A stretch of DNA of 39,399 nucleotides from a virus: the IMG/VR virus record IMGVR_UViG_3300046000_008888, positions 1 through 39,399 of that record; one strand, written 5' to 3'. A program made the position numbers and the translations under genes. How positions within the stretch are numbered: position 1 is the first letter of the stretch; each line of letters begins with the position of its first letter. Below the pieces are notes generated by a model, which searched no databases, was not told the origin of the DNA, and saw only the letters and a program-made list of their open reading frames with translations. Of the stretch, positions 14,475 to 33,733 are shown in pieces.

Positions 14475-15383
14475 ATGGCTTTAGGAGCATATGGAATTGT
14501 AAGACCAGCAGACGTTTCACCACAAGATGTTGAAATAATATTACATTATACCCCATCAAGGGACGTGACAACAAATTTTGTATTAAAAAAGTTAAACGCA
14601 TCAAGTATATTAACACCTTATTTTCATAATGGAAGTACTGGAGGAAATAATAATGTTGAAATATTAGGTGGTTTATACAATCTTAAGTTACCTGCGACCG
14701 AGTTTTCAAATATTGGAATATATACGCTATATATAAGACCCGCAGAAATAAGAACAGTAATTAGTGATTGTGGAGTTTTAAGTGCTTTACCTAATGTTAG
14801 AGGAATTGTCATTGATATTAATCAAGTACCTCAGGCGTATAGAAATAAATTTGTAAGCCAAGGTCTTGTCGGGTTTAGAATTGAATATTTAAATTCTGAT
14901 GGAACAAAAATACCAAATTTTTATAGAATTGTAACATCCTCATTCTATTGTGAACCAGTATTCACTGATGTTAATAACACAACACAAAAAGCATTAAGAT
15001 ATAGATATGTTGAAGGAAATAGTGATTTAATGTTTTGTACATTATCACCATCGGCATCACCAACTAACAAACCAAACGCAACACCCTTCATTGGACAACC
15101 AAACCAAAACATTATAATTACTAATACATATTTTAACCCTATGACTGTTGAAGTACAAATCGCTAATTACGATATAGATACTTTAGCAATTGCATTATAC
15201 GGTAATCAAACTAAGAGTATTGATGATGGGATATACACATTGTACGATAGTTCAGGAAATATCTATAAACAATATAACCTATTTGAGGTTAGAGATAACT
15301 TTAATGAATTACTTTATGAGGTTAGACAAGATAGGGGTACTAACATTGATTTTAGTAAAAACTTCACAAACATTATTAGTTAA
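14475..15383 (+). CDS. Putative virion structural protein
   Basis: 302 residues, no family recognised. It starts M-A-L-G-A-Y-G-I-V-R-P-A-D-V-S-P-Q-D-V-E and is beta-rich. A Thr-, Ser- and Asn-rich stretch with C-T-L-S-P-S-A-S-P-T-N-K-P lies near residues 189-201. The C-terminus repeats the theme Y-D-S-S-G-N-I-Y-K-Q-Y-N-L-F-E-V-R-D-N, like a curled fibre or wedge tail. Its stop overlaps the next ATG by one base, which ties it to the 992-residue protein. Confidence 0.6.
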   Translation: MALGAYGIVRPADVSPQDVEIILHYTPSRDVTTNFVLKKLNASSILTPYFHNGSTGGNNNVEILGGLYNLKLPATEFSNIGIYTLYIRPAEIRTVISDCGVLSALPNVRGIVIDINQVPQAYRNKFVSQGLVGFRIEYLNSDGTKIPNFYRIVTSSFYCEPVFTDVNNTTQKALRYRYVEGNSDLMFCTLSPSASPTNKPNATPFIGQPNQNIIITNTYFNPMTVEVQIANYDIDTLAIALYGNQTKSIDDGIYTLYDSSGNIYKQYNLFEVRDNFNELLYEVRQDRGTNIDFSKNFTNIIS

Positions 15384-18363: not shown

Positions 18364-21123
18364 ATGGCTTGTATTTCAGGAATTACTTTAGGAGGTTATT
18401 ATAGTTATTTTGATTGTTGCGGATTAAATCAATCGGGTATTAGTCCTGGTTTACAAAGCGTGTGTGTTGATTCGGCATATTCTGCAAGTACCGTAGGATT
18501 ACTATTATATAGTGGAACACCTTGTACCTTAGATTGTAATCAAGGACCACTTAGTTATACTTTTACCGTTACGGGAGTTTGTAACAACCCAACAGGGCAA
18601 GTAACAATACAACCATATGGGGGAACACCACCATACACTATTGATAATATAACACCAGGAGGTATTTCCGCTCAAACAAGTACTTCAGCAATAACCTTCA
18701 CGGGTTTAACTGGAGGGACTTATGTTTTTAGACTTAACGACTCTCTTGGAATTCAAAACAACGAATTATTTATTAACGTTGAAATATCAGATTGTTTTAG
18801 TGCAAATATAACAAACACTAGTGGAACCACTTGTGGTAATGATAACGGATCGTTTTTTGTTAATTCAACCTCAACTGCGGCACCATATAGTTTAATACTT
18901 TATAAAGATAATCTATTTTACCAAAATTATTTAACAAATACTTTACCATACCAAATAAACGGGTTGTCTGATGGAATATATTATGCAACCATTTACGATT
19001 ATGGGTTTAGTACCGCAAATACCGAAAACGTCATAATATCCGCGAGTACAGGAACGCAATTTGGTTTATGGAAAGTAAACGCATCTAATTGCGTTATAAA
19101 TACAGGTAAACTTGCCGTAACGGGAATAACGGGTACAGGACCATACACGTATTTATGGTCAGACGGACAAACATCACAAGTAGCGACAGGATTGACTGTT
19201 GGAACATATAGTGTTACGGTTACTGATTATTACGGATGTGAAACAACAGGTTCGGATACTATTGGTGTTGCCGACCCACTTGGCGTTGGTTTACTATCAT
19301 CAGTTAATCCTTCTTGTTTTGCGTCTGACGGTTCTATAACTGTTACATTAACAGGCGGAACCGCACCATTTTATTATTCTGCAAATACAGGACAACAAGG
19401 GTATACGTTATCAAACACATTTACAATACCCAATATACCCGCAGGGCCATATGTTATTAGTGTTAGAGATGCTAATTTCTGTCCACTTAATGTTTTTGCA
19501 ACACTAACAACAGTTAATGGATTTAATGTTATTAGTACGACTGTTGTAAATAATAATTGTAATCCAGGAAATGCTCAAATAATTGCAAATATTGAAGGAA
19601 TAACCCCATTTTTATATTCATTATCCGGTATTAGTACTAACTACTATAGTAGTTTTTCAACAACAAATGAATTAACGACTTTTACAAATTTACAAGACGA
19701 CACGTATGTTCTTATCATATCTGGACAATCAAGTGGATGTTATTATGTTGATTCACTTGTTGTTCAAACTCAGTCAACATTTGGAATTAACGTTTCATTA
19801 ACGGGGGCCACTTGTGGTTCACCTAACGGTGCGGTTACAATTGACGTAACAACGGGATATACGGGACCTTTAGATTTTATTTTAATTGGTGGAGAAACTC
19901 AATCCGTTATTGATTGGCCATTGTCATCGTACACGTTTAATTACCTACAACCAGGAAATTATGAAATTCAAGTGATTGATGGTCTTAATTGTATTGTTTC
20001 ACAAAACTTTAGTATTGGGTCCTTAGGGTTATTAAATTCTAACGTTATAACAACCGATTGTGTTTTGGGTAATGACGGTGCGGTTGAAGTAATTGTTTAC
20101 GAGGGTGAACCACCATTTACCTATACTTGGTCAAATAATGTACCTGTAGGACAAACGGGGTCAACAATAAACGGATTATCAGGAGGAACGTATCAACTAA
20201 TAGTTACGGATAGTAGTGGGTGTACAGACACAACAATTTTTAATATTAACTGTAACGTTAATCTTATAACGGGAACCACAAGCTATGAAATCTGTGATAA
20301 TTCTTTTACAACTACAACAGGAAACAAAAGAGGGATAGTTGAAATGATTTCAGAAGGGTTTTTGGATTTAACATCTGGATATACAAATTGTTATATTAAC
20401 TATTACACATTAGAGTGTAATATTAATTTAAATGGAAGTGCCTTCACTCAAACGGTATTAGTTGAAAACGACAGCGGATGGCAACAATCAATAGAAACTA
20501 TATTATCATCAATACCTGAAGTTGGGGATTACCAAATTGATTTATTAAACAATACATTATTTATTGCATCTAATTGTCAAGTAGGTGAAGACCCACTTGG
20601 AAATGCGGGGTTCAGTTTAGCGTTAGTCGTGGAATATGATATTAGCTGCGAGGATATCGTACCAACACCTACACCAACACCTACCGCAACTCCAACACCT
20701 ACACCAACACCTACCGCAACTCCTACACCAACACCTACACCAACATCTACGGTTACACCAACACCTACACCAACATCTACGGTTACACCAACACCTACCC
20801 CATCACCATCACCAACACCAACACCTACTCCTGTTTATTATACTTGGTTATCGAATAGCGCTTATTATGCTCTTGGTGTACCACAAACCTGTGCAGACCC
20901 GATTGGTTCGTTAACCCTTTATACATCAACACCAACATTAAGTGTGGGAACAGTACTTTATACTAACCCTTCTTTAACTACTACGGTCTCACCATCAGCG
21001 TCTTGTGGAGGGGCGCCAGGGACTTTATGTCAAAAGGCGATTAAATCTTCTAACCCTTTAAGTCTTAGACGAAAAGTAACCGTAGGAGGTGGTGGAACCA
21101 TCGTATATTTACAAAATTGTTAA
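18364..21123 (+). CDS. SprB-repeat adhesin/tail fibre with Pro-Thr linker
   Basis: 919 residues from ATG 18364; a TTG at 18355 would add three residues and overlap the previous stop. The N-terminus is Cys-rich ([12 protein letters not shown]). Residues about 60-640 hold around seven SprB-type beta repeats with the pattern G-x-x-P-Y-x-Y-x-W-S-x-G, then G-L-x-x-G-T-Y-x-V-x-V-T-D-x-x-G-C. Clear copies are [13 protein letters not shown] and [13 protein letters not shown]. SprB is the cell-surface gliding adhesin of flavobacteria. A pure Pro-Thr/Ser linker (about residues 767-822) leads to a C-terminal domain of about 95 residues. Probably a receptor- or glycan-binding fibre. No signal peptide was seen, as expected for a virion protein. 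Confidence 0.8.
20661..20832 (+). repeat. Pro-Thr-coding tandem repeat (linker of SprB-type adhesin)
   Basis: Imperfect hexamer array based on CCAACA and CCTACA, coding (P-T)n. Larger units are duplicated in tandem, for example a 30-base unit ending in ACATCTACGGTT, near 20729-20758 and 20759-20788. It codes for an extended stiff linker. Confidence 0.9.
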
Positions 21124-21126
21124 CCT

Positions 21127-21414
21127 ATGGCGTATTCAATAGACATAACAGGAGTAAGTGGGGGAACGGCACCAATAAATTACTACGTGTGTGACCAAAA
21201 TGGTAATAACTGTACATTTTTAGGTACATCTATTGGAATATATGTTTTACCTATCTTTTATCAAAACGCAACTACATTATTAATACAATCTATAGACAGC
21301 GGAGGTTGTTATAATTTTAAATTATATACTTGTGTTGATACTTGTTTCATATTAACAGAAGACTTATTTGAAATAACTGCAGAAAATGGAGATAATTTGA
21401 CATTATGTGATTAA
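21127..21414 (+). CDS. Small fibre-associated protein, paralogue family copy 1
   Basis: 95 residues. Pattern: I-T-G-V-S-G-G-T-A-P-I-N-Y-Y-V-C-D, then N-C-T-F-L-G, I-Y-V-L-P, and I-Q-S-I-D-S-G-G-C. Same layout as the products at 21429 and 29040: G-T-x-P-hydrophobic-x-V-C-D, a Cys about ten residues on, and (I/L)-x-x-I-D-x-x-G-C near residue 60. It starts three bases after the SprB-type adhesin stop. The single beta domain resembles half of an SprB-like unit. It may be a tip, cap or fold helper of the adhesin; that is inference. Confidence 0.7.
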   Translation: MAYSIDITGVSGGTAPINYYVCDQNGNNCTFLGTSIGIYVLPIFYQNATTLLIQSIDSGGCYNFKLYTCVDTCFILTEDLFEITAENGDNLTLCD

Positions 21415-21417
21415 AAG

Positions 21418-21425
21418 TATTTATC
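21418..21425 (+). promoter_or_regulatory. TATTTATC motif, candidate late promoter
   Basis: Eleven bases before the ATG at 21429, in the 14-base gap between two paralogous small genes. If it is a promoter, the transcript would start at or inside the start codon. Confidence 0.25.
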
Positions 21426-21428
21426 TAT

Positions 21429-21713
21429 ATGATACTTCAAATAACAGGAACAACTAGTGGAACATCACCTTATGACGTTTTTTTATGTGATGAAAATAAT
21501 ACCTCATGTTTTTATATATCGGGATTAACAAACATTCCTCCTGATGTTTATATATTAACCGATAATTATTTTCCTGGAGAAAATGTACTTTTTGTTAAAT
21601 TAATAGATTTAAATGGGTGTATTCACGAACAAAAAATAGTGTGCGGAGAACAGTTATTCCTAGATGGATTTGGATTTATATTTATGGATGATAACTATTT
21701 TACATTCCAATAA
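21429..21713 (+). CDS. Small fibre-associated protein, paralogue family copy 2
   Basis: 94 residues: I-T-G-T-T-S-G-T-S-P-Y-D-V-F-L-C-D-E-N-N, S-C-F-Y-I-S-G, V-K-L-I-D-L-N-G-C, then an acidic, aromatic C-terminus (F-I-F-M-D-D-N-Y-F-T-F). The C-terminal theme of Gly and Phe with a final D-D-x-Y-x-F is closest to the copy at 29040. Placed between copy 1 and the long fibre gene. Confidence 0.7.
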   Translation: MILQITGTTSGTSPYDVFLCDENNTSCFYISGLTNIPPDVYILTDNYFPGENVLFVKLIDLNGCIHEQKIVCGEQLFLDGFGFIFMDDNYFTFQ

Positions 21714-21726
21714 TAAATGATTGTAA

Positions 21727-21738
21727 TATTTATAAAAT
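21727..21738 (+). promoter_or_regulatory. TATTTATAAAAT motif, candidate late promoter
   Basis: TATTTATA at 21727-21734 runs into TATAAAAT (21731-21738), three bases before the fibre ATG at 21742. Confidence 0.33.
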
Positions 21739-21741
21739 AAA

Positions 21742-24330
21742 ATGCCAATAACTTATCAATATTTAACGGACAGAACCTTAGTTACACAAAGTGCGGTAAC
21801 TACAGACAGTTTAATACACGTTGTTATTCCAGCTGACATATCACAAAATCCTGCAGGATCATCATATAAGGCAAAACTTTCGCAAGTGATAAATGTATTT
21901 TCTTCTTACTTCGTTAACACAAGTGGGGATACTATGACTGGAACATTAATTGTCCCAACAATATCAGCAACAACATACAATAACTTACCATCCACATCAG
22001 GATTATATCTACCATTAAGTGGTGGAACAGTAACAGGAAAAACAATTTTTAATCAGGGTTTAACGGCAACAACAATATCTGCAACCACTTATTTAAATTT
22101 ACCTACCACAACTAACGGTTACCTACCATTAAGTGGTGGAACTGTGACAGGTAATACAAGTTTTACAAGTGGTGTTACCGCTAACACAATATCTAACACA
22201 ACATATATTGATTTTACTACGGGATCCACAAATCCTTCTGCTGTTGGCGGAAGAATGTTCTTTGATAATACATCAAAGTCATTATCTTATTACGATATTA
22301 TTGGTAATAACGTTCCAATTGCAATGGGACAACAACTATATGTTAGAGGAAATAACGCAACAGGATCACAGATAAATAAAGGTAGTGTTGTTATGGTTAC
22401 AGGAACTACTAATACATTACCGAGCATTGCATTAGCGACAAATAATCACGCACAAGGAACACCACGACCAATCGGGTTGGCGGCTGAAAACATATCAAGT
22501 GGTAGTGATGGTTTAGTCATTGTTAATGGTATATTAAGTGGTATTACATTAAATACCTTTGCAAATGGGGACACATTATATTTGTCCAACTCAACACCTG
22601 GAGGATATGTTAACTCAACCTCATCGTTACCGTTTAGTGCAAGAACAAATGAAATTGGTTATGTGTTACAAACAGGAACAACAACAGGTAAAATATATGT
22701 AAATATTAATAATGAAGATAGTAATTTAACTTTAACCGATATTGAAAGAAATATCCTTGAGGGTAATGTAATTTCAACGGGAATATATGAGTATACAGGA
22801 ATGTCTGTTGCCAGTTCCACAACAATAAATGTTGCTCCCGCTAGAGGATGGATCGTAAATAACACATATAATTTTGCAACATCACCTGATGTTACTAATC
22901 TTTATTATTCGGGTGGAACAGGAATTACAATGACAAACATCGCAACTGCAGACGCCACCTACATTTTATTAACTAGTGCGTCCACAATAACACAACAAAC
23001 AACATTCCCAACACCACAACAAAGAAGAGAAAATATACTTTTAGGTAAAGTTGTTCACCCAAGTAGGACATCCATATTAAATGTTAACAATACTGTAGAT
23101 TTTGACGTTTCACCTATGTCGGCACTTCGTGATTTATGGACACCGATAAGATTAATAAATCAAGGAGTAATACCATCTGCGAATACTGGACTAACAATTA
23201 ATACAACTGCTGGGACTTTATGGGGTAATGGTATTGGGTGGGTATCAAATCAATTAAACCCTGATAGTGTTAGTATTTCGGCAAAAACACCAGCATCTTT
23301 CTTTTATAGAACACAAACAGGAGGAACAAGTGGTTCGGTATCAGTTATAGATCCAACAAAATATGATGTTGGCGGGGTCATCACAAGTATGGGTGCTGCG
23401 GGTGTTGACGACTCATCCAACCAAAGAATTTACCTTTACCCAACTGGAGTTATAAATATCCTATATGGACAACATAAATACAACAATTTGGCTGCGGCGG
23501 TTGCCGCGATACAATCAGAAACCTTTGTGGTTTATCCAAATGCTGAAACTACAGGTATTTTAATTGGTGTGTTATCAGTTAGAAACGATATTGTTGCTGA
23601 CGGTGAAGCGTTAACAAACACTGATTATGCTAAATTCACATTAGTTTCTAAATTTGGTGAGAGTTTTGGTGGAACGGGTGGTTTATCTACAACAACACTA
23701 CAACAAGCATATAATAATTCGGTAACACCCGAAATAACCACTAATTCAACATTAGGTCCGTTAAGTGTTAAAAATGGTGCAGGTACATTGGATAATGTTA
23801 CAAACGTTTTTGAGGGTGTTAACGCTACAGGAACAACAACATCATATGTTCGTGCCGATGGTGCAATATTAGGAACATCAATATCTGCAACAACATTTAA
23901 TCTTGCGGGTTCACAAATAGAATCTGCTTGGACATCATATGTTCCCGTTTGGACTGCAAGTGGTACTAATCCAGTGATTAATAATGGAACTATAGAAGGT
24001 TGGTATAAAGTAATTGGTAAAACGTGTTTTGTAAGAGGAAATATTGCGATGGGTAGTACAACAACTTTTGGTACAGGAGAATGGTACGTCTCGATGCCGG
24101 TTACAGCTGTACACGCTGACGCCATATTAATGACGGTAACTTTATTAGATAATGGTAGTGCTTGGTATAACGCTACAATGGCTGGAGGAAGAGCGGGGTT
24201 TAACACTAAAGCCCCTATGCAATATGTAAATATTGTAAATGGAACTGCTAGTGACGTAAATGTGACCCAACCATTTACTTGGGCAAATGGTGATAGATTT
24301 ATTTGGAACGGGTCATATGAGATAGCTTAA
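21742..24330 (+). CDS. Tail fibre protein with repeat stalk and receptor-binding tip
   Basis: 862 residues. Residues 1-55 (S-L-I-H-V-V-x5-S-Q-N-P-A-G-S-S-Y-K) match the N-terminus of the 175-residue protein at 29348 and probably form the shared attachment module. Residues 90-165 carry a 38-residue repeat with Y-L-P-L-S-G-G-T-V-T-G and I-S-A-T-T-Y, the phage fibre stalk repeat. The middle is a long beta-rich stretch with L-A-A-A-V-A-A-I-Q. The C-terminal 140 residues (W-T-S-Y-V-P-V-W-T-A-S-G-T-N-P, G-W-Y-K-V-I-G-K-T-C-F-V-R-G, T-T-F-G-T-G-E-W) resemble tip domains of many phage fibres. The next two genes are glycosyltransferases. Confidence 0.88.
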   Translation: MPITYQYLTDRTLVTQSAVTTDSLIHVVIPADISQNPAGSSYKAKLSQVINVFSSYFVNTSGDTMTGTLIVPTISATTYNNLPSTSGLYLPLSGGTVTGKTIFNQGLTATTISATTYLNLPTTTNGYLPLSGGTVTGNTSFTSGVTANTISNTTYIDFTTGSTNPSAVGGRMFFDNTSKSLSYYDIIGNNVPIAMGQQLYVRGNNATGSQINKGSVVMVTGTTNTLPSIALATNNHAQGTPRPIGLAAENISSGSDGLVIVNGILSGITLNTFANGDTLYLSNSTPGGYVNSTSSLPFSARTNEIGYVLQTGTTTGKIYVNINNEDSNLTLTDIERNILEGNVISTGIYEYTGMSVASSTTINVAPARGWIVNNTYNFATSPDVTNLYYSGGTGITMTNIATADATYILLTSASTITQQTTFPTPQQRRENILLGKVVHPSRTSILNVNNTVDFDVSPMSALRDLWTPIRLINQGVIPSANTGLTINTTAGTLWGNGIGWVSNQLNPDSVSISAKTPASFFYRTQTGGTSGSVSVIDPTKYDVGGVITSMGAAGVDDSSNQRIYLYPTGVINILYGQHKYNNLAAAVAAIQSETFVVYPNAETTGILIGVLSVRNDIVADGEALTNTDYAKFTLVSKFGESFGGTGGLSTTTLQQAYNNSVTPEITTNSTLGPLSVKNGAGTLDNVTNVFEGVNATGTTTSYVRADGAILGTSISATTFNLAGSQIESAWTSYVPVWTASGTNPVINNGTIEGWYKVIGKTCFVRGNIAMGSTTTFGTGEWYVSMPVTAVHADAILMTVTLLDNGSAWYNATMAGGRAGFNTKAPMQYVNIVNGTASDVNVTQPFTWANGDRFIWNGSYEIA
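22009..22142 (+). repeat. Fibre stalk repeat, 114-base period
   Basis: The 20-mer CTACCATTAAGTGGTGGAAC occurs at 22009 and again at 22123, in frame, giving a 38-residue protein period. Weaker copies of the I-S-A-T-T-Y part occur before and after, and once more near 23882. Confidence 0.85.
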
Positions 24331-24335
24331 ATGTT

Positions 24336-24343
24336 TATTTATT
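24336..24343 (+). promoter_or_regulatory. TATTTATT motif, candidate late promoter
   Basis: 32 bases before the ATG at 24368, in the only gap between the long fibre gene and the glycosyltransferase pair. Confidence 0.25.
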
Positions 24344-24367
24344 TGTATTGTTTCATAATTTTTTATT

Positions 24368-25615
24368 ATGAAGATTTTTATACAAATTGCGTCTTATAGA
24401 GACCCTGAACTAATACCGACAATTAAGGATTGTATTAATAACTCTAAGTATCCTGAAAATTTAGTATTTGGTATTTGTAGACAATTTCATCCTGAAGATA
24501 AGTTTGATGATTTATCGGAATATAATAACGATGACAGGTTTAGAGTTATTAACGTACCATATTTAGAAGCGAAAGGAGTTTGTTGGGCAAGAAATCAAGT
24601 TCAACAATTATACAAAGACGAAGAGTATACTCTTCAAATAGATTCCCATATGAGATTTGAAAAAAATTGGGATGAAACATTAATTGAGATGATTCACCAA
24701 CTTCAAGAAATAGGAATACCAAAACCATTACTTACAGGGTACGTATCATCATATAATCCACAGAATGATCCTGAAGGAAGGGTTAGAGTTCCTTGGAGAA
24801 TGACTTTTGATAGATTTATACCTGAAGGGGCCGTTTTCTTTTTACCTGAAACGATCCCAAATTGGGAAGATATTGAATTACCTGTACCGTCAAGATTTTA
24901 TTCTGCTCATTTTTGTTTTACTTTAGGAATATTTTCAAAAGAGGTTCAACATAACCCTGAATTTTATTTTCACGGGGAAGAAATATCAATTGCTGTTAGG
25001 GCATTCACCCATGGATATGATTTATTTCACCCACATAGAGTTGTACTATGGCATGAATACACAAGAGATGGTAGAACAAAACATTGGGATGATGATAAAG
25101 AATGGTGGAAATTAAATAACAGTGCACATAATTTGAATAGGTTGTTGTTTGGTATGGACGGTAACGAACAATCAGGACATAACGGTAAATATGGGTTTGG
25201 AACTGTTAGGACATTAAGGGATTATGAAATTTACTCAGGATTACTTTTTTCAAAACGAGCAGTACAAAAATACACATTAGATAAAAGTTACCCACCAAAC
25301 CCATATGATTTTAATAGTGAAGAAGAATGGATTACTAGTTTTTCTACAATATTCAAACATTGTATTGATTTAAATTTAGATAGAGCACCATTTGATGATT
25401 ATGATTTTTGGGTTGTGGCGTTTCATAATTCAAAAGGAGACACAATTAATAGACTTGATTTAAACAAAGATGAAGTTAAACAACTACAAAAAGATACTAC
25501 AGGAGTTTGTAAAATATGGAGAGAGTTTCAAACAACAGAAAAACCATCATATTGGGTTGTGTGGCCTTACTCATCATCTAAAGGATGGTGTGATAAAATA
25601 GAAGGTAAATTATAA
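24368..25615 (+). CDS. Glycosyltransferase, Skp1/polypeptide GlcNAc-transferase-like (GT60 type)
   Basis: 415 residues. The N-terminus I-F-I-Q-I-A-S-Y-R-D-P-E-L-I-P-T-I-K (3-20), A-K-G-V-C-W-A-R-N-Q-V-Q (68-79) and the catalytic-type L-Q-I-D92-S-H94-M-R-F-x3-W-D are the hallmarks of the GlcNAc-transferase family that includes Dictyostelium Skp1 GlcNAc-transferase. That enzyme adds GlcNAc to a hydroxyproline, and relatives act on Thr. The D-S-H triplet is the metal- and sugar-nucleotide-binding motif. F-H-G-E-E-I-S-I-A-V-R-A-F-T-H-G-Y-D (about 198-215) is the second conserved part. It lies six bases before a second glycosyltransferase and directly after a fibre gene, so virion protein glycosylation is more likely than DNA modification. 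The acceptor is inferred, not shown. Confidence 0.88.
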   Translation: MKIFIQIASYRDPELIPTIKDCINNSKYPENLVFGICRQFHPEDKFDDLSEYNNDDRFRVINVPYLEAKGVCWARNQVQQLYKDEEYTLQIDSHMRFEKNWDETLIEMIHQLQEIGIPKPLLTGYVSSYNPQNDPEGRVRVPWRMTFDRFIPEGAVFFLPETIPNWEDIELPVPSRFYSAHFCFTLGIFSKEVQHNPEFYFHGEEISIAVRAFTHGYDLFHPHRVVLWHEYTRDGRTKHWDDDKEWWKLNNSAHNLNRLLFGMDGNEQSGHNGKYGFGTVRTLRDYEIYSGLLFSKRAVQKYTLDKSYPPNPYDFNSEEEWITSFSTIFKHCIDLNLDRAPFDDYDFWVVAFHNSKGDTINRLDLNKDEVKQLQKDTTGVCKIWREFQTTEKPSYWVVWPYSSSKGWCDKIEGKL

Positions 25616-25621
25616 TTTAAT

Positions 25622-27325
25622 ATGAGAATTTGTATAGTCACTTTATTCACTGAAGAAATAGAAAAAGAATCAAGATTAGCAACATTAAATAAAAAAAAAT
25701 ATTGTGAAAAATATAATTTAGATTATAGATTTTTTTACGGTAGAGCATCTGATAGGCACGCACAATGGGACAAGATACAATGTTTAATACAAACATTACC
25801 TGAGTATGATTATGTGATATGGATGGATAGTGATACCGTGTTTAATAATTTTGATATATCATTTATTGATTTAATTAAAAACAACTTAAACTTTGATTCA
25901 TTATTTTGTAGTGATGTATGTTATACTGAAGGGGTTGTGCACCTTATGGTTAACACTGGTGTTATGATATTTAAAAACACTGAATGGTCGTCAAATTTAT
26001 TAAATAAAGTTTGGAATAGCATTCCTGAATATAGTTTAGATAAATTAGATAAACATTCATATGATGGTTTCCCACACGAACAAGGTAAAATGTGTGAAGA
26101 ACTTAATAGAGAAAATACGGACAAGTTTAAAATATTCCCATCCACGGAATTTAATAGCCACCCAAATTCATCAAATGACAAAACATTTATTATCCATCAT
26201 ATGGGTAGCAGACAATCTGAATCTCACCTATCAACTTTTATTAATTCGGTTAAAAGAGTTAATAATAATTTAGGTATTAATGAAAATGAAACCTTTGATG
26301 TTATTAATTTAAAAAAATTAAAAATATGTTTAGTATCTCATTACACTGAAAATATTCAAAATGTTGCAAACATCACTATCCCTAATAAGGAAAGTTACTG
26401 TAAAAAACATAATTACGATTTTAAATACCATAAAGGAAGATTAAGTGATAGACACCCTGGTTGGGACAAAATATTATACCTAAAAGAGATTATGTCAACA
26501 AATGAATACGATTACGTTGTTTGGGTAGATAATGACGCATATATTACAAATAAAGAAATTAGATTTGATTTTATTTGTAATGAAAACCCAAGTAAAAAAT
26601 TAATGATAGCATCAGAAGATACAAATAGAGGTATAACATCATTAAACCCTAATTTAGATTACAATCAACTACATAATTTAAGAATAGTTAACACAGGAGT
26701 AATGATATTAAAAAATGATGATTGGACAATTAATTTTTTAAACACTGTATGGAATACTAAAAGTAATACAAATAGAGGGATTGAATACTCACATAAAGAA
26801 ATAATTAATAATAATTTTAACTACGAATATTGGCCGTTTGAACAAGGACCTATACATTTGGTACTTTCACAATCAAGTCCCGATGATTATAAAATTTTTA
26901 ATAGTGAAATTTTAAATAGGTTTAGAACTGACCATAAAAAACAACATTTTATTTGTCATTTTGTTGGTGAGGGTTCTAATGACATTACAATAAAAAATTA
27001 TATAGAAAGTTTATCAGAACAAAATAAAAAAACATTAATTAAAAGTTTTAACGTTACCGCACCATTTAAAGACAGGTTTACCAGACTATATTGTGAAATA
27101 TATAAAAATAATGATTTATACAGGTTAAAGTATATTTGGGATTACTCTAATATTGGAATTGACCATTTAAGTCATTCATTTGAGATTATTGACGGTAATA
27201 TCAGAAAACAAATTGATTTTGATAGTAATAGTACGGGTTCCTTTGAATTTAAAAACTTAGACAGTAAAAAAATTAACCATTCATATAATTGGTTTGGTGA
27301 GTGCGATTGGAAACAAATACTATAA
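25622..27325 (+). CDS. Tandem-domain glycosyltransferase, GT34 (GMA12/MNN10)-like
   Basis: 567 residues with two copies of one fold. Domain 1 (about 1-215): I-C-I-V-T-L-F-T, Y-C-E-K-Y-N-L-D-Y, H-A-Q-W-D-K-I-Q, then Y-V-I-W-M-D69-S-D71. Domain 2 (about 230-440): I-C-L-V-S-H-Y-T, Y-C-K-K-H-N-Y-D-F, H-P-G-W-D-K-I-L, then Y-V-V-W-V-D303-N-D305. Each has the D-x-D motif for metal and nucleotide-sugar binding and a later N-T-G-V-M-I stretch, so both look active. A C-terminal part (about 450-567) is different and ends C-D-W-K-Q. The W-D-K and W-(M/V)-D-x-D layout is that of galactosyl- and mannosyltransferases of GT34 type. It could extend a sugar placed by the upstream enzyme. Donor and acceptor are unknown. 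Confidence 0.85.
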   Translation: MRICIVTLFTEEIEKESRLATLNKKKYCEKYNLDYRFFYGRASDRHAQWDKIQCLIQTLPEYDYVIWMDSDTVFNNFDISFIDLIKNNLNFDSLFCSDVCYTEGVVHLMVNTGVMIFKNTEWSSNLLNKVWNSIPEYSLDKLDKHSYDGFPHEQGKMCEELNRENTDKFKIFPSTEFNSHPNSSNDKTFIIHHMGSRQSESHLSTFINSVKRVNNNLGINENETFDVINLKKLKICLVSHYTENIQNVANITIPNKESYCKKHNYDFKYHKGRLSDRHPGWDKILYLKEIMSTNEYDYVVWVDNDAYITNKEIRFDFICNENPSKKLMIASEDTNRGITSLNPNLDYNQLHNLRIVNTGVMILKNDDWTINFLNTVWNTKSNTNRGIEYSHKEIINNNFNYEYWPFEQGPIHLVLSQSSPDDYKIFNSEILNRFRTDHKKQHFICHFVGEGSNDITIKNYIESLSEQNKKTLIKSFNVTAPFKDRFTRLYCEIYKNNDLYRLKYIWDYSNIGIDHLSHSFEIIDGNIRKQIDFDSNSTGSFEFKNLDSKKINHSYNWFGECDWKQIL

Positions 27326-27381
27326 TAGGTATTATTTTCAATATAATCCAATAAAAGAATTTAATAAAATAAATTTTTGAT

Positions 27382-27389
27382 TATTTATA
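27382..27389 (+). promoter_or_regulatory. TATTTATA motif, candidate late promoter
   Basis: 26 bases before the ATG at 27408 and just before a 16-bp palindrome. Position at the start of the second adhesin cassette fits a promoter for that cassette. Confidence 0.35.
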
Positions 27390-27391
27390 TA

Positions 27392-27407
27392 TAAAGTTTA
27401 AACTTTA
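27392..27407. promoter_or_regulatory. 16-bp perfect palindrome touching the start codon
   Basis: TAAAGTTTAAACTTTA ends one base before the ATG at 27408. A dimeric protein bound here would block transcription or translation start. The sequence is AT-rich, so chance is possible. Confidence 0.4.
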
Positions 27408-29036
27408 ATGGCTAATTTATTATTTGAAGGTTGTTGTTATGATGGTTATCAGTACTATACTGACGAGGCTGCTTGGATTGCAACAGGAGGAACCGCAACA
27501 ACGGGATTAACTTACCACTTTTCAGGTGACCCAGTGGTACCTAATGGTTGTTATACTATAGTATCTGCGTTCACTTCAGGGTTTAGCTCAACGATATTCA
27601 CACAATTAGATGGGACTTATACCTTACAAACAGATTGTAGCGATACATTATGTTTAACTGCAGATTGTTGTAGTAATGAAGTTTGTGTCACAATACCTTT
27701 AACCACTTATTCTGGTATAAGTGGCGATTATGTGGTTGCCGGTAATTATAACTCATATCCTTTTTGGACGGGGTCAACCGATCCAGGGTATTTATTTTTT
27801 AATGGTACTAATTGGTGTTTATCTGATAGTTTAGGAGGTACTTGTTATTTTTATGGGTCAAACCCAACGACTTATGTTTGTCCCGATTTAGACGAGAGTA
27901 TTTATCATATATCATTTTGTACACCACCACCTACTCCGTATGACCCTTGTTCTACGTTTGATTTCGATCTTTTAGTTGAGTGTGAAATACCTGTACCAAC
28001 ACCTACACCAACAGCCACTATAGTACCAACACCTACACCAACACCTACACCTACAGTAGATATTTGTTCAGGATTTACTGTGAGTGTTAGTTTTAGTTCA
28101 ACAACTGCACCAACACCATCACCAACCCCAACACCATCACCAACAGCAACGTTTCCTTATAATATTGTTGGGCAATCGGTAACTTTTGTAATTGATGATG
28201 GTAATTTTGAATGTATAACAGTTAAAAAATTAATTGAGTGTGATAATGGAAATGAGATATTTGTTGCAAACCCATTAGTGTATTCAAGTAGTGCGATTAC
28301 TACAGGAACAACATTTTTGGCATTATTTAGTGAGGGTAATAAATGTGTTACCTACGTTGAGGATGAATTTGGTAGTCCTTCAGATTATATTGTAACAATA
28401 AATTCAGTATTTACTGGAGATTGTAGTACTTGTGTTGCACCAGCAATAACACCTACTCCGACAACGACACCAACACCTACGCCAACACCTACACCTACAC
28501 CTACACCAACTGTATCATATGCGGTAGGAACATCGTTTATATTCACATCTTGTACAAGTAATACTATGGTAATACAAAATCTTTACCCACCAACAAATAT
28601 TGTTAGTGGTAGTATAGTACAAGATTACTCAGGAAATTGTTACACGTATGTCGGTTATTATGTTAATTACATACCACCAACAGGATTCTTATGGACAAAT
28701 GCTAATTTGTTTACGGGGACAACCGCAACAACATATACTTCTTGTATTTCTTGTTTAACACCAGCACCTACGGCAACACCAACGTATTTACAGTATACAG
28801 GTAGAGGTGAATTTGGAGTTTCTTGTCCTGTTTGTGAATTAACAAATGGTGGTACTCAAATAACATTCTATACAGAATATAGTACACAACCACTACAAAC
28901 AGGTGACTATATTTATGAAGATAGTACACTTATAACACCAGTAATAATGAGTTATATTAAATATGGAGGTAAAATATATAGTGTTGACTTAGATGGTCAA
29001 ATAACAGAATTTTGTATAGTAAATGGTAATTGTTAA
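27408..29036 (+). CDS. Cys-rich adhesin/tail fibre with Pro-Thr linkers
   Basis: 542 residues. Beads-on-a-string layout: an N-terminal Cys-rich part (E-G-C-C-Y-D-G-Y), a module with Y-P-F-W-T-G-S-T and L-F-F-N-G-T-N-W-C (about 105-170), Pro-Thr linkers at about 195-221, 231-250, 344-370 and 450-463, and two modules between them. Each of the two contains G-N-x-C-(V/Y)-T-Y-V and closes with a C-x-x-C pair (D-C-S-T-C and S-C-I-S-C). The C-terminal part (I-T-F-Y-T-E-Y, Q-T-G-D-Y-I-Y-E-D-S-T-L) resembles the end of the adhesin at 18364. The alternation of folded modules and rigid linkers looks like a surface adhesin. Starts with ATG after an A/T-rich leader and opens the second cassette. Confidence 0.75.
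   Translation: MANLLFEGCCYDGYQYYTDEAAWIATGGTATTGLTYHFSGDPVVPNGCYTIVSAFTSGFSSTIFTQLDGTYTLQTDCSDTLCLTADCCSNEVCVTIPLTTYSGISGDYVVAGNYNSYPFWTGSTDPGYLFFNGTNWCLSDSLGGTCYFYGSNPTTYVCPDLDESIYHISFCTPPPTPYDPCSTFDFDLLVECEIPVPTPTPTATIVPTPTPTPTPTVDICSGFTVSVSFSSTTAPTPSPTPTPSPTATFPYNIVGQSVTFVIDDGNFECITVKKLIECDNGNEIFVANPLVYSSSAITTGTTFLALFSEGNKCVTYVEDEFGSPSDYIVTINSVFTGDCSTCVAPAITPTPTTTPTPTPTPTPTPTPTVSYAVGTSFIFTSCTSNTMVIQNLYPPTNIVSGSIVQDYSGNCYTYVGYYVNYIPPTGFLWTNANLFTGTTATTYTSCISCLTPAPTATPTYLQYTGRGEFGVSCPVCELTNGGTQITFYTEYSTQPLQTGDYIYEDSTLITPVIMSYIKYGGKIYSVDLDGQITEFCIVNGNC
27991..28056 (+). repeat. Pro-Thr-coding repeat, linker 1 of adhesin
   Basis: Two blocks of the CCAACACCTACA type separated by a short A-T-I-V-coding piece. 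The same hexamers as in the array at 20661. Confidence 0.85.
28108..28150 (+). repeat. Pro-Thr/Ser-coding repeat, linker 2 of adhesin
   Basis: CCAACACCATCA-type units coding P-T-P-S, twice repeated. Confidence 0.8.
28450..28510 (+). repeat. Pro-Thr-coding repeat, linker 3 of adhesin
   Basis: A run of ACACCTACACCA-type hexamers coding an uninterrupted (P-T)n stretch of about ten pairs, the longest linker in this gene. Confidence 0.85.
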
Positions 29037-29039
29037 GAT

Positions 29040-29327
29040 ATGGCAACAATAGTAACAGTAAATTCAACAACAGGAACCTTACCATTAGATATATGGGTTT
29101 GTGATACGTGTACAGGGGCATCACCAACCTGTCAATACATTGGAACAACAAGTACATTTCCATATAATTTTACATTACCATCAATATACGAATCAAGTCA
29201 AGTATACTCAATAAAATTTATAGATGATAACGGATGTGTATATTGTGAGGAGTATTCTTACTATAAACAATTTGAGGGTGGAGAAGTATTCTTCTTTAAT
29301 GATGGTACACCATATGAATTTGAATAA
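29040..29327 (+). CDS. Small fibre-associated protein, paralogue family copy 3
   Basis: 95 residues: T-G-T-L-P-L-D-I-W-V-C-D-T-C-T-G, T-C-Q-Y-I-G-T, F-T-L-P-S-I-Y, S-I-K-F-I-D-D-N-G-C-V-Y-C, then F-F-F-N-D-G-T-P-Y-E-F-E. Same pattern as the two genes at 21127 and 21429. As there, it follows a Pro-Thr adhesin within three bases and precedes a fibre gene with the shared attachment N-terminus. Confidence 0.7.
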   Translation: MATIVTVNSTTGTLPLDIWVCDTCTGASPTCQYIGTTSTFPYNFTLPSIYESSQVYSIKFIDDNGCVYCEEYSYYKQFEGGEVFFFNDGTPYEFE

Positions 29328-29347
29328 AACTTAATATATATAAATAA

Positions 29348-29875
29348 ATGGCAAGATTAACAGATAAAACGACAGCGACGGCAGTAACATTGAACAGTTT
29401 GGTTCATATTGTAAATACCGGAGATACCTCACAAAGTAGTTCGGGGTCATCATATAAAACCAACTTAGGTCAAGTTGCTGATGTGATAGGAGGATATCAA
29501 TACTATAGTGCGGTCACTATACCATCGGCAGATATACTTACTTTAAGTTCAACACCTGTTGAGTTACTACCCGCACCTGCATCAGGTTATTATGATGCAA
29601 AATTCATTATTGAATATACGTTTAACACTACACCATACATTACGGTTGGTAATGTAATAATTACAGACGGAACAAATACAATATATAATGATATTTTTGA
29701 TTTTGCAAGTTTTGGTGCCGATACAATATTTATTGTTCAATCAATGAACGGACCAACCAACACTGGAATAACAGCAAATAACGGAATTTATTTAACAAAT
29801 CAAACCGCCGACCCAACATCAGGAGATGGGGATTTGTTAGTAAAAATTTGGTACTCAATAAGAACTGTAGGATAA
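29348..29875 (+). CDS. Short fibre/trimeric adaptor with shared attachment N-terminus
   Basis: 175 residues. Residues 1-50 (L-T-D-K-T, S-L-V-H-I-V, D-T-S-Q-S-S-S-G-S-S-Y-K-T-N-L-G-Q-V) match the N-terminus of the 862-residue fibre. The remaining 120 residues are a single beta-rich domain with no stalk repeats (D-A-K-F-I-I-E-Y-T-F-N, and ending L-L-V-K-I-W-Y-S-I-R). It may be a short fibre or a capsid/baseplate decoration that uses the same docking site as the long fibre. A TATAAATA ends one base before the ATG, too close to serve this start as a normal promoter. Confidence 0.7.
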   Translation: MARLTDKTTATAVTLNSLVHIVNTGDTSQSSSGSSYKTNLGQVADVIGGYQYYSAVTIPSADILTLSSTPVELLPAPASGYYDAKFIIEYTFNTTPYITVGNVIITDGTNTIYNDIFDFASFGADTIFIVQSMNGPTNTGITANNGIYLTNQTADPTSGDGDLLVKIWYSIRTVG

Positions 29876-29879
29876 TAAA

Positions 29880-31505
29880 ATGGCAGGATATACAGGAAAT
29901 ACGTGTGATATTATAACATTATTCCCATTGGGGGTTATATGTCAGAGTGTAAATGCATATACACCATTCACAAGTGATGGTGCAATAAATTTATTTATAA
30001 CAGGAGGTACACCACCATATACAATAACTTGGAATAACGGATCACAAAGTCAAAATATAACTAATTTACAATCAGGAAATTATACGGCAACAATAAAAGA
30101 TTATTACGGTGATTTTAGTGCAACGACAACTTGTACCGTTGGTTACGATACGTTTTATATTGAAAAATTTAAAAATTGTACAACATTATCTGAAATTTAT
30201 TATAATGCCAATTTAAGTTTACTATATAGCGGAGGTTCAATTTACTCTTTAAATAATCAACAAGGGTGTTGGATTAGTGAAGGTATTGAGTTATACACAG
30301 GACAAACTTATTATAACTATAGTGCGGTAACCGTTACAGGACCATTTGAAAATTGTTCAGAATGTTTACCAACGGCACCCGTTGTTTTAAATACATCTGC
30401 TCTATGTCTAACAAACATATATCAGTCAACAGTAACTCAATATCAGTTTTTTTCTGGAGGGACAATTAATGGGTACCCTTCTTGGACATCATCAACTAAT
30501 AATCAAGTAATATATTATAACACAACAAACACAAGTTGGAGAATAACTGGATGGCCATTAAATGGTACACCGTATCTACAAAATGCGACAAGTCCACCAA
30601 TTGGTACTTGGGATATGTTGAATTCAATTCCGGCAAGTATTATAACAGTCAATCAAGGTAGTTGTGGTAATGTTATGACGGCAACAGTGACTAGTACTCC
30701 TCCATTATGTCAAGGAGGAACTAACGGAACTATTACGGTCACTTCAGTTGCTGGAGGAACCGCACCATATACATACTCATTAATTGATGATTTAAGTTTT
30801 TACCAATCATCCCCGACATTTTTAAACCTTAGTGAAGGTAACTATACAGTCTTTATTCAAGATCTTTTTGGTAACGTTACAGTTAATACTGTTAATTTAT
30901 TATCGCCAACACCACCGACACAATATACAATTAACTTAACTTTAACACCTACAAATGGTACACAATTAAATTTCACAACAACAAATACAACTAAGTTATG
31001 GAATTGGTCTGTTTCTGTGACACCACCGCTACCTGCGGGTAAAGAACTTAATTTTACGTTAACACATGCATCAAATTATTCGGCAACAACTGTTGGGGTA
31101 AACACCTCATCTGTATCTTATAGTCAAACAACAGGTACCACAGGAGGAGGTCAGTTTTTAACTTCCCAAACCCCAATAGTGATAACAAATAACTCATCAA
31201 CAGTCCCTTGTTCAAGTACTTTAACATACACAAATTATTTAACAAATAGCACAATTAGACAATATACGGCAAAAATTGTTGGTACAGGTACTGTAAATGG
31301 CACAGTAACACAAGGTGTCACAGTTACCAATAATGTAAACGGTTGTGTGGTAACTGCAGAAATAATAGATAGCATATCTATAACTAACATACAATTAGTT
31401 AACCAAAATCAATGTGAGATAATAAATACTAACATACAACCATTAACATTTAGTTTAGGTAGAACTGGAACACCAGCAGCTTCCATTAATAACCAACAAC
31501 TATAA
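29880..31505 (+). CDS. SprB-like repeat adhesin/tail fibre
   Basis: 541 residues. Residues 30-90 are one SprB-type unit ([17 protein letters not shown], then L-Q-S-G-N-Y-T-A-T-I-K-D-Y-Y-G). A second lies at about 270-345 (G-G-T-N-G-T-I-T-V, G-T-A-P-Y-T-Y-S, S-E-G-N-Y-T-V-F-I-Q-D-L-F-G). Between them are two modules also seen in the adhesin at 27408: one with Q-G-C-W-I and closing C-S-E-C, and one with N-G-Y-P-S-W-T-S-S-T and I-Y-Y-N-T-T. The C-terminal 190 residues are Thr- and Asn-rich beta structure without linkers. It follows the 175-residue gene by four bases. Confidence 0.75.
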   Translation: MAGYTGNTCDIITLFPLGVICQSVNAYTPFTSDGAINLFITGGTPPYTITWNNGSQSQNITNLQSGNYTATIKDYYGDFSATTTCTVGYDTFYIEKFKNCTTLSEIYYNANLSLLYSGGSIYSLNNQQGCWISEGIELYTGQTYYNYSAVTVTGPFENCSECLPTAPVVLNTSALCLTNIYQSTVTQYQFFSGGTINGYPSWTSSTNNQVIYYNTTNTSWRITGWPLNGTPYLQNATSPPIGTWDMLNSIPASIITVNQGSCGNVMTATVTSTPPLCQGGTNGTITVTSVAGGTAPYTYSLIDDLSFYQSSPTFLNLSEGNYTVFIQDLFGNVTVNTVNLLSPTPPTQYTINLTLTPTNGTQLNFTTTNTTKLWNWSVSVTPPLPAGKELNFTLTHASNYSATTVGVNTSSVSYSQTTGTTGGGQFLTSQTPIVITNNSSTVPCSSTLTYTNYLTNSTIRQYTAKIVGTGTVNGTVTQGVTVTNNVNGCVVTAEIIDSISITNIQLVNQNQCEIINTNIQPLTFSLGRTGTPAASINNQQL

Positions 31506-31519
31506 AAAAACAATTGAAA

Positions 31520-31531
31520 TATTTATAAAAT
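31520..31531 (+). promoter_or_regulatory. TATTTATAAAAT motif, candidate late promoter
   Basis: TATTTATA (31520-31527) then TATAAAAT (31524-31531) directly against the ATG at 31532. If it is a promoter, the mRNA would start inside the gene, so here it may be only an A/T-rich start context. Confidence 0.22.
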
Positions 31532-33733
31532 ATGTCATACATAAATAAAGTAACAGGAGGTTTAATAAATACGATACTAACCGATGCGGCAAGAAAGAAA
31601 ATATCGCAAGGTAAGTTCAACATATCATATTTTCAAGTAGGAGATAGTGAAGTTTGTTATGGGTGTATTGCAAACTCAAAACCATCAGATTTAAATGTAT
31701 TAATGCCACAATATAATGCACAAAATACAACGCCGTCACCTGAAACGAATAGAATGCATGTTAAATACCCACTTTACGTTGATTCAACATCAGCAAGTAC
31801 TTATGGTATTGCTTATGATTCATCTTTTGTTGACGACATTTACAATTCTGCAGCTCCAAGAGGATTTTTTACAGGTAACGGACTAACTTATAGCGCATAT
31901 ACATCATCAGCATATACAATCACCCCAAATTTTATTGTTGGTAATTCAAATATTAATTCAGGGACAACTTTAACAATAAGTTCAAGTACTTTAAACTCTT
32001 CAGTTTCAGGTACAGTAACTCCTGGTATGATAATGACATTGTTTACAAATAATTCAGTAACACCACTAAGTGGAAACGCACCTATGTTTACTTATGTTGT
32101 TGTTGGAGTTACTGGTAACACATATAGCTCAACAACGGTAACAATACAAGTTGATAGACAATTACCTAACTTCTCATCAATGGGATTCAGTGGTAATTCA
32201 AGAGTAATATTCTACCCTTCAGGGATGACGGCACTTTATGATTCGGTAACCCCTGAACCGTATTGGGCGACAAATGTTTTTAATTTTGAAACAAATTGTG
32301 ACGTTTCACAATCAGACGTTAAAGTGTGGAACATGAATATTCCTTGGACTGAGTCACCTGCTGGTTTATTTGGAAATACAAATTTAGATTACAATTATTT
32401 TAAATCTACAGGATATACTGGATCAAAAGAGTACTTTGGGTATAAAACGGATTCGGCACAAGTTGACACAGGAGGTGTATATTTTTATAACTCAATGGGT
32501 CAACAAATTACTGTAAATCCATCAGACCAAAAGGCGGTTGCTATTCTACACTACACAAACCAATCAATAGATAATTTCTATGGTGAAAAGTTTGCACAAC
32601 AAGAATATGACGCAACAAATCCTAATGGTACAGGACAAGCAAGGAATTTTAAAATTAGTATCCCATGGTTGATGTGGCATAAAAACCCTAATAGAACCAT
32701 AGGTGAAGAATTTTATACTGACCCATCAGGGTTTACGCAAGTTGACTTATTTCAAGTATATTATATGAAATCTAAAAAAGATTCAGGGTTTAATAGTCCT
32801 GGTCTTAGATATTATCAGTTATGGGATACTCACACAAATAGTAACGGTTATCCAAATAGGGTTGGTAAAGTGTTTCCTGACCTTAAAATGGTCATATTTG
32901 ATGATGATGAAGTCATCGCAGCACTTTCTTACAAATCAAATAGAAGTTGGACTCTTCCAGCACCAAAGGTAGGGACAATCATACCAAATGCTTGTGATGG
33001 TATTTTAGGAAATGATGAAGGTCTTGTTAGTGCAAATACCGAATCAATATTTGTTACATACAGATTTAATAATTCCGCATTTACTAATTCTTTACATTGT
33101 AATTATTATACAAAAGTAACGCCAGCACTTTTAGACCCAAATCAAACAACATATAATATATTTTTAAAATTTGGTAACGAGTTTCCATTTTTAATTTCAC
33201 AAAACACAACAATACCTACAGGATTTACTGCAAATCAAATGAGAGTGTTGGCACAAAAAGTACAAAGTGGGACAACGAGACCAACATCAACACAATGGAA
33301 ACAAATTGATGTTATGTCACAGTTGTCAGCATCAACTAATAGTGGATACTTAACCGTAAGTGGGTTAACGGGGACAACAATACAAATTACAAAAGATATG
33401 TATGACAATGCACCAACATACAATCTAAATAATTATATTACATTACCAACATCAGCAATGTCAGGAATAACACTTAATTTTGGAGGTGAATACTACTTTT
33501 ATGGGCAAATTACAACAGATATTCAAGCAACAATATACGTAATGAACTTCTTATGTAATATTGGACAAAATCAATTTTTAACATCAACAAACCCAACTTG
33601 GGACGGGACCTCACCATATATTTCAGAAGTTGCTCTTTACAACGATGAAAAGGAACTTATGGTTATATCTAAGATACAATCCCCTGAAAAAAGACAAGGG
33701 ATACAACAGTATCCTGTTAAACTTGATTTTTAA
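31532..33733 (+). CDS. Putative tail-associated structural protein
   Basis: 733 residues. The N-terminus, G-G-L-I-N-T-I-L-T-D-A-A-R-K-K-I-S-Q-G-K, followed by F-N-I-S-Y-F-Q-V-G-D-S-E-V, resembles the opening of many phage fibre and tail proteins, which read L-T-x-x-G-x-x-x-(L/I)-x-x-G-x-x-x-x-x-x-x-x-x-G-D. The rest is beta-rich with W-D-T-H-T-N-S-N-G-Y-P and V-F-P-D-L-K-M-V-I-F-D-D-D-E near 440-470, and V-A-L-Y-N-D-E-K-E-L-M-V-I-S-K near the end. Closing motifs of that kind (stating that an element can be moved or updated) are seen in cyanophage-like structural proteins, but I cannot name the family. It ends the fibre block, six bases before the resolvase gene. Confidence 0.65.
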   Translation: MSYINKVTGGLINTILTDAARKKISQGKFNISYFQVGDSEVCYGCIANSKPSDLNVLMPQYNAQNTTPSPETNRMHVKYPLYVDSTSASTYGIAYDSSFVDDIYNSAAPRGFFTGNGLTYSAYTSSAYTITPNFIVGNSNINSGTTLTISSSTLNSSVSGTVTPGMIMTLFTNNSVTPLSGNAPMFTYVVVGVTGNTYSSTTVTIQVDRQLPNFSSMGFSGNSRVIFYPSGMTALYDSVTPEPYWATNVFNFETNCDVSQSDVKVWNMNIPWTESPAGLFGNTNLDYNYFKSTGYTGSKEYFGYKTDSAQVDTGGVYFYNSMGQQITVNPSDQKAVAILHYTNQSIDNFYGEKFAQQEYDATNPNGTGQARNFKISIPWLMWHKNPNRTIGEEFYTDPSGFTQVDLFQVYYMKSKKDSGFNSPGLRYYQLWDTHTNSNGYPNRVGKVFPDLKMVIFDDDEVIAALSYKSNRSWTLPAPKVGTIIPNACDGILGNDEGLVSANTESIFVTYRFNNSAFTNSLHCNYYTKVTPALLDPNQTTYNIFLKFGNEFPFLISQNTTIPTGFTANQMRVLAQKVQSGTTRPTSTQWKQIDVMSQLSASTNSGYLTVSGLTGTTIQITKDMYDNAPTYNLNNYITLPTSAMSGITLNFGGEYYFYGQITTDIQATIYVMNFLCNIGQNQFLTSTNPTWDGTSPYISEVALYNDEKELMVISKIQSPEKRQGIQQYPVKLDF

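Follow-up and report, generated by a model that had tools for sequence, protein, structure and literature searches.

Among the described ways in which phages carry several receptor-binding proteins (RBPs), the closest to the one considered here are the adapter-based RBP system of K1-5, in which gp37 has a T4gp10-like domain and the RBPs bear short N-terminal peptides, and the anchor-branched RBP system of G7C and Klebsiella phages, both as presented in the part of PMC6872550 that treats them; with these, the locus described below appears to share several RBPs on a conserved connector, short conserved coupling peptides, swapped distal domains and a syntenic frame. A further likeness is to the tailspike proteins TSP1-4 of the Ackermannviridae, for which the cluster description in PMC8432352 gives several RBPs per virion and receptor-binding modules swapped between tailspike positions. 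The present locus lies in the window, i.e., the whole of the 39,399-base IMG/VR record IMGVR_UViG_3300046000_008888, which is a fragment of a T4-like phage; it contains two sets of genes (stations), each composed of a Pro-Thr protein (A), one or two small Ig-like proteins (S) and a tail fibre with a conserved N-terminal anchor (F). The main finding is that in this phage and its relatives the C-terminal tail of S predicts both the presence and the type of the accompanying fibre gene.

The relatives were gathered by two IMG/VR scans, made with the proteins bordering the fibre region on the left (B) and on the right (C), the best 80 loci being kept from each, for a total of 160 loci. Among 132 distinct S proteins, those ending in the FQ-type tail have F behind them in 47 of the 49 cases that could be scored and lack it in the other two, while one more lies at a contig end (S2 of locus L112 was counted as FQ on reading of its sequence); S proteins with any other C-terminus are followed by F in 0/82 cases, among them those without a tail (0/24), with an ILTE tail (0/23) or fused to a distal part (0/28). 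Downstream of S proteins with an LLQE tail a second fibre anchor, F', is found in six out of seven; a profile-detectable relationship between F' and F was considered and is unsupported (hhalign probability 0.6), and the two were treated as distinct anchor types. The rule was also tested on other data, by searching for loci through the anchors themselves (80 F loci, 50 of them new, and 22 F' loci, 12 of them new): an FQ-type tail is present on the upstream S in 48 of the 50 new F loci and an LLQE-type tail in 10 of 11 scorable new F' loci (one more is truncated), with no mismatched tail/anchor pair in the new loci. The LLQE/F' combination is located at S1a in two loci (L005 and L108) and at S1b in four others (L103, L111, L116 and L120), so that the pair changes slot; indeed, both tail/anchor types are found at more than one slot. 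In L254, F' has no recognised S upstream; a 977-aa non-S protein, carrying an LLEN-type repeat at its end, ends 54 bases before the F' start, and a tail of this kind may therefore be transferable to proteins other than S.

The same association is recovered at the level of whole records, where S matches reaching model position 94 were taken as FQ-tailed: out of 50 records, 16 have both the FQ tail and F, one has the tail alone, none has F alone and 33 have neither (Fisher p 3e-12, a value which ignores relatedness and, the records being fragments and many of them related, overstates the evidence). The exception, G044, is a 109-kb fragment and is likely a relative of the 282-kb record G007 (L069 and L156 have the same architecture string); L069 is also one of the two gene-level exceptions to the FQ/F rule. 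In G007 the tailed S lies at 62,572 and the single F, preceded on its 5' side by a 182-aa gene, at 275,786, the two being unlinked. As for the nature of the tail, in FQ-tailed S2 proteins pS is 0.54 in the core and 0.62 in the tail, with pN/pS of 0.565 and 0.41, respectively; the corresponding values for FQ-tailed S1b are 0.585 and 0.64 for pS and 0.50 and 0.455 for pN/pS. Since pN/pS in the tail is below that of the core and pS is not reduced, the tail is kept as protein; a role as a DNA element is not supported, synonymous variation not being reduced.

In the window, baseplate wedge proteins (2174-2635 and 2638-4479) are followed by large structural proteins and then by the fibre region, whose genes are, in order from position 15383:

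B, 15383..18361, + strand: 992-aa conserved structural protein, left border; IMG/VR relatives 49-77% identical (best 80)
A1, 18364..21123, + strand: SprB-repeat protein with Pro-Thr linker and C-terminal module, station 1; PF13573 E 1.1e-18
S1a, 21127..21414, + strand: Ig-like protein, putative adaptor, ILTE-type tail
S1b, 21429..21713, + strand: Ig-like protein, putative adaptor, FQ-type tail, directly 5' of F1
F1, 21742..24330, + strand: 862-aa tail fibre with slot-1 N-terminal anchor
GT1, 24368..25615, + strand: PF11397 (GlcNAc) glycosyltransferase, between the stations
GT2, 25622..27325, + strand: 567-aa protein with two GT34-like stretches in tandem; PF05637 E 1.5e-20, 2 stretches
A2, 27408..29036, + strand: beads linked by Pro-Thr linkers, station 2
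S2, 29040..29327, + strand: Ig-like protein, putative adaptor, FQ-type tail at about residues 75-95
F2, 29348..29875, + strand: 175-aa short fibre with slot-2 N-terminal anchor
A3, 29880..31505, + strand: SprB-repeat protein 3' of station 2; PF13573 E 7.2e-15
C, 31532..33733, + strand: 733-aa conserved protein, right border; IMG/VR relatives 46-82% identical (best 80)

A preliminary description of this DNA had pointed to a repeated order of Pro-Thr protein, protein of about 95 residues and fibre; both sets are present, with open reading frames (ORFs) at the coordinates listed. The similarity it had suspected among the small proteins is borne out by blastp (E 2.7e-7 for S1a/S1b, 1.3e-6 for S1b/S2, 3.4e-5 for S1a/S2) and by Smith-Waterman alignment (z 13.3, 12.2 and 8.5, respectively, with 0/2000 shuffles as high in each case), and the N-termini of F1 and F2 are homologous (51% identity over 49 residues, z 18, again 0/2000 shuffles as high); neither the small proteins nor the fibre N-termini proved dissimilar, the outcome that had been named as contrary to the proposal. 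Of the A proteins, SprB repeats are found in A1 and A3 (PF13573, 67 and 54.8 bits against a cut-off of 28), and A2 has no Pfam match. In a search of 50,697 phage records no match was obtained for B, nor for S2, A2 and C. A D4-like motif, TATTTATAAAATA, considered 5' of F1 and C, is no more frequent than expected by chance when two mismatches are allowed (23 versus a mean of 19).

The order B-A1-S-S-F-GT1-A2-S-F-A3-C recurs, with changes, among the 160 loci, and both stations occupy fixed places, with three S lineages, across what is a clade of uncultivated, mostly large aquatic phages having two separate fibre stations. The records behind L038, L154, L099, L069 and L089 measure 281-297 kb, and the window thus probably represents part of a large phage genome. 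Identity between the window and L001 is 77% for B, 82% for C, 53-61% for S, 70% for A2, 41% for F1 and 60% for F2; when F1 is compared with three relatives, the similarity is mostly limited to the first 50 residues (54-64%). Relatives endowed with both stations have 60-77% identity in the flanking B. A tree of the S core (80 columns), built from a set that omits the truncated L115 S fragment, S matches with E of at least 1e-8 and matches of at least 760 aa, groups the sequences by slot and not by phage, with one change for S1a, three for S1b and five for S2 (0/500 shuffles as low), the branch support of S1a being only 56.

The S proteins form one family, represented in the window and by 212 gene matches in the fetched loci, with a core of about 70 residues and invariant cysteines at positions 21, 31 and 66 (S2 numbering). 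The AlphaFold2 model of S2 is an Ig-like sandwich of seven elements (mean pLDDT 75.1, the last 20 residues or so being near 60), and the PDB chains aligning to its residues 1-76 (Z up to 6.5) are of generic Ig/FN3-like type. Profile comparison also shows a resemblance of S to the SprB-like repeats of proteins encoded nearby (probability 88 and E 3e-6, against at most 3.4 for shuffled controls), and S may hence be a free-standing repeat of that kind. Downstream of the core, the C-terminus is of several types: no tail, an ILTE tail, an LLQE tail, an FQ tail (FQDG..FMDG..FQ) or a fusion to a distal part, as with DUF285 in L007 (E 7.3e-174) and with a Pro-Thr part in L005, L084 and L096. Tails, fused distal domains and the Pro-Thr part with its C-terminal module all move between loci.

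The F anchor, of about 45 residues (9 of 55 positions invariant in 18 rows), is present in 76 genes of the fetched loci, at the head of proteins of 121-1035 aa. F1 corresponds to phrog_16641, tail fiber protein (PHROG, E 4.4e-16), and its distal part matches 151 phage records, including tail fiber and tailspike annotations; a whole-protein scan with F2 for further relatives gave one locus. The anchors bear a mark of their slot: slot-1 fibres with an intact start begin with MP followed by YQ or YN in 16 of 17 cases (the exception is an extra F before S1a in L109), a start seen in 0/38 slot-2 fibres, and one further slot-1 fibre, in L229, begins MAVYQ. The distal modules are exchanged between phages and between slots; 149 distal alignments connect slot 1 with slot 2 at 1e-10, the clearest case being that of L115 and L097, where the C-terminal 157 residues of the slot-1 fibre in the former are 76% identical to the slot-2 fibre of the latter. 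Recognisable distal modules include Laminin_G_3 (1.2e-20), DUF285 (7.3e-174), Peptidase_S74 (6.8e-18) and collagen-like repeats (1.2e-5, under the cut-off of that family); the Peptidase_S74 match is at the C-terminus of a 1530-aa slot-1 ORF in L121, and in G050, the record behind L126 with L121-type architecture, an F anchor is found at the equivalent slot. The fibres of L115 and L097 are each followed by an LRR-like gene and then by a 73-aa gene, and the set of fibre, LRR-like gene (336-623 aa) and gene of about 73 aa forms a module found in slot 1 or 2 (L115:181-4817, L097:4365-8351, L110, L113, L124); the protein of about 73 aa located 3' of some fibre modules may be a fibre chaperone.

The N-termini of A1, A2 and A3 are dissimilar (z -0.7 to 1.8). 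A1 and A2 do show homology in the module that lies behind their Pro-Thr linker, with an hhalign probability of 90.7 (E 1.2e-6) against at most 0.4 for five column-shuffled controls. The Pro-Thr part comes and goes, as A1 ends without it in 17 of the 23 loci that match the motif of the preceding A1 domain. In A2, whose fold has no PDB match with E below 0.29, the T-P residues of the linkers are invariant in a 33-sequence alignment and most linkers are disordered in the AlphaFold2 model (pLDDT under 50 at 175-269 and 347-368), features which would fit O-glycosylation of the Pro-Thr linkers. GT1 is clearly assigned (PF11397 E 6.6e-66, 223.6 bits versus a cut-off of 21; PHROG glycosyltransferase E 2.5e-163), and in 55 of 58 loci (counted without deduplication) a glycosyltransferase gene precedes A2 at a distance of no more than seven genes, the exceptions being L100, L102 and L119; PF11397 occurs as a single gene in nine of ten long records and is missing from G007. 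GT1 falls into two allelic classes, 43-47% and 66-73% identical to that of the window, which do not track the flanks. A homologue beside adhesin genes was sought in Xanthomonas phage XacN1, where the gene adjoins instead a carbamoyl transferase and nucleic-acid genes, and in G008 the PF11397 gene is far from the S genes; in view of both contexts, the GT1 family is not tied to fibres. A host-surface or other target for GT1 is as plausible as the Pro-Thr linkers. The glycosyltransferase stretch is itself variable (window 24368-27325; L083:3527-6474; L130:779-4883; L087:9145-9999), with optional extra genes matching DUF3431, HtrL_YibB and DUF6734, and a GT2-like gene of the same label and length is found only in L113 among the fetched loci. 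The more distant relatives L043, L045, L048, L049, L053, L056 and L071 have another conserved protein of about 324 aa (e.g., L049:15226-16200), placed between A1 and A3-like genes and carrying the motif PDV.YFHWQ, which looks like another glycosyltransferase; a Pfam search with five of these proteins gave no significant match, and a PDB search with one of them gave none.

The arrangement is probably to be read as two ancestral fibre stations in which S would be a portable adaptor whose tail plugs into the N-terminal anchor of the fibre; physical docking of the two and the presence of S in the virion would go with this reading. A station would consist of a constant A protein, the Ig-fold adaptor S, presumably attached to A or to the baseplate, and F whenever S bears the right tail. 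The S core would stay with its slot and its C-terminus would hold the host-binding part in one of two ways, i.e., by covalent fusion to a distal domain such as Pro-Thr or DUF285, or through a short tail plugging into the N-terminal anchor of about 45 residues of a separate fibre, with two types of plug and socket (FQ with F, LLQE with F'), while GT1 would glycosylate the Pro-Thr linkers. The fullest version, in which the two tail/anchor pairs are orthogonal, each tail selecting its own anchor, adaptor, tail and fibre can move between the stations or give way to covalent fusion, and the glycosyltransferase island decorates the Pro-Thr linkers as a mucin-like shaft, is tentative and rather doubtful.

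Several observations weigh against the proposed plug and socket. F is carried without a recognised S upstream by L216 and L228; ILTE-tailed S1a proteins lack an adjoining fibre in all cases (23/23), and thus a partner is known for only some of the tails; in G023 and G027, two F genes accompany a single FQ-tailed S. The matches to the S fold are generic, with Z reaching 6.5 and a Foldseek E of 0.11 at best. Tree-independent FQ/F contrasts amount to 3 on supported branches and 12 on all branches, none being contrary and the number being too small for significance. Finally, within the FQ class the distances of tail and anchor are weakly correlated once the S core is taken into account (partial r 0.12 for S2, 0.44 for S1b, 0.16 for all), which is what interchangeable F anchors would lead one to expect; coevolution at the residue level, considered for this class as a further indication, is weak only and gives no positive support for fine coevolution of tail and anchor.

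The tail rule fits equally well a chaperone-client pair, and S, which is small and encoded beside the fibre gene, could be a fibre-specific assembly factor whose tail holds the nascent fibre N-terminus while it folds or is joined and which need not remain in the virion; this explanation deserves attention but is unlikely, because S cores also form the N-terminal part of large adhesin-like proteins (L007; L005, L084, L096), which suits a structural connector, and the gene of about 73 aa found after some fibre modules is a better candidate for a chaperone. It might also be argued that tail and anchor simply mark the ends of a single exchangeable DNA cassette, or serve in translation coupling, and occur together through linkage and not through binding. 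That S and F are mostly adjacent, about 20-30 bases apart, and that the partial tail-anchor correlation is weak would both agree with it; nevertheless, the tail keeps its amino acids with synonymous sites no less variable than those of the core, S and F are unlinked in G007 and two tails match two anchors with no mismatch, rendering this alternative distinctly improbable.

As to the origin of the two stations, the preliminary description had proposed duplication followed by module exchange, by which one particle may have come to carry several alternative binding proteins. Exchange is supported, given that distal fibre parts cross slots; a duplication specific to this phage is contradicted by the comparison of gene order, A1-S1a-S1b-F-GT-A2-S2-F-A3 recurring in relatives. 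A recent duplication of the whole cassette in the window phage, followed by divergence, would account for the order repeated in the window and for the homology of S and F between the two sets, yet it is hardly credible when both stations are syntenic in relatives, including those with B at 60-77% identity, and the S tree groups by slot; moreover, the first A element is no simple copy, as the N-termini of A1 and A2 are unrelated by sequence and only the C-terminal module is common. As far as sequence comparison can tell, the duplication is old and exchange continues inside standing slots.

These observations matter in that fibre genes, normally recognised from anchors of their own, are difficult to place when the phage is uncultivated; here a tail of about 20 residues on a small neighbouring protein forecasts whether, and which, fibre is encoded, once even when the two are unlinked. 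If the tail is a plug, as we favour, this clade would swap its host-binding parts via a plug-socket pair and not by recombination inside fibres, and two orthogonal pairs, if true, would offer a natural toolkit for assembling proteins from modules. With a glycosyltransferase gene lying between them, the Pro-Thr proteins make virion O-glycosylation in aquatic phages testable.

In the literature found (open-access PMC full text only) the arrangement is not described. Glycosylation of mycobacteriophage virions by phage glycosyltransferases (Freeman et al. 2023, as cited in PMC12619734) resembles the role proposed for GT1 in acting on virion proteins, with the difference that GT1 lies among tail adhesin genes. 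The moraphages, introduced in PMC12619734 as large aquatic phages of up to 307 kb with Bacteroidota as predicted hosts and four core groups of putative glycosyltransferases, are similar by description in that the relatives of the window are aquatic and reach 297 kb; the passages concerned give no account of a fibre region. In the Ackermannviridae each spike has its own connector domains (XD) in its N-terminal part, and the cluster description in PMC8432352 includes no small Ig-like proteins, Pro-Thr proteins or intervening glycosyltransferase gene. With respect to K1-5 and G7C, as these are outlined in the pertinent sections of PMC6872550, F likewise combines a conserved N-terminal anchor with an exchangeable distal part; there, however, the RBPs bear the peptide at their N-terminus and the connector is T4gp10-like, whereas here a small Ig-like protein bears it at its C-terminus, the fibre has an anchor of about 45 residues, there are two tail/anchor types and fusion of S is an alternative. 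Among the matches listed for the S model no chain is named gp10, which does not prove that such a domain is lacking. The arrangement would work like an adapter system, without implying one of the gp10-based kind.

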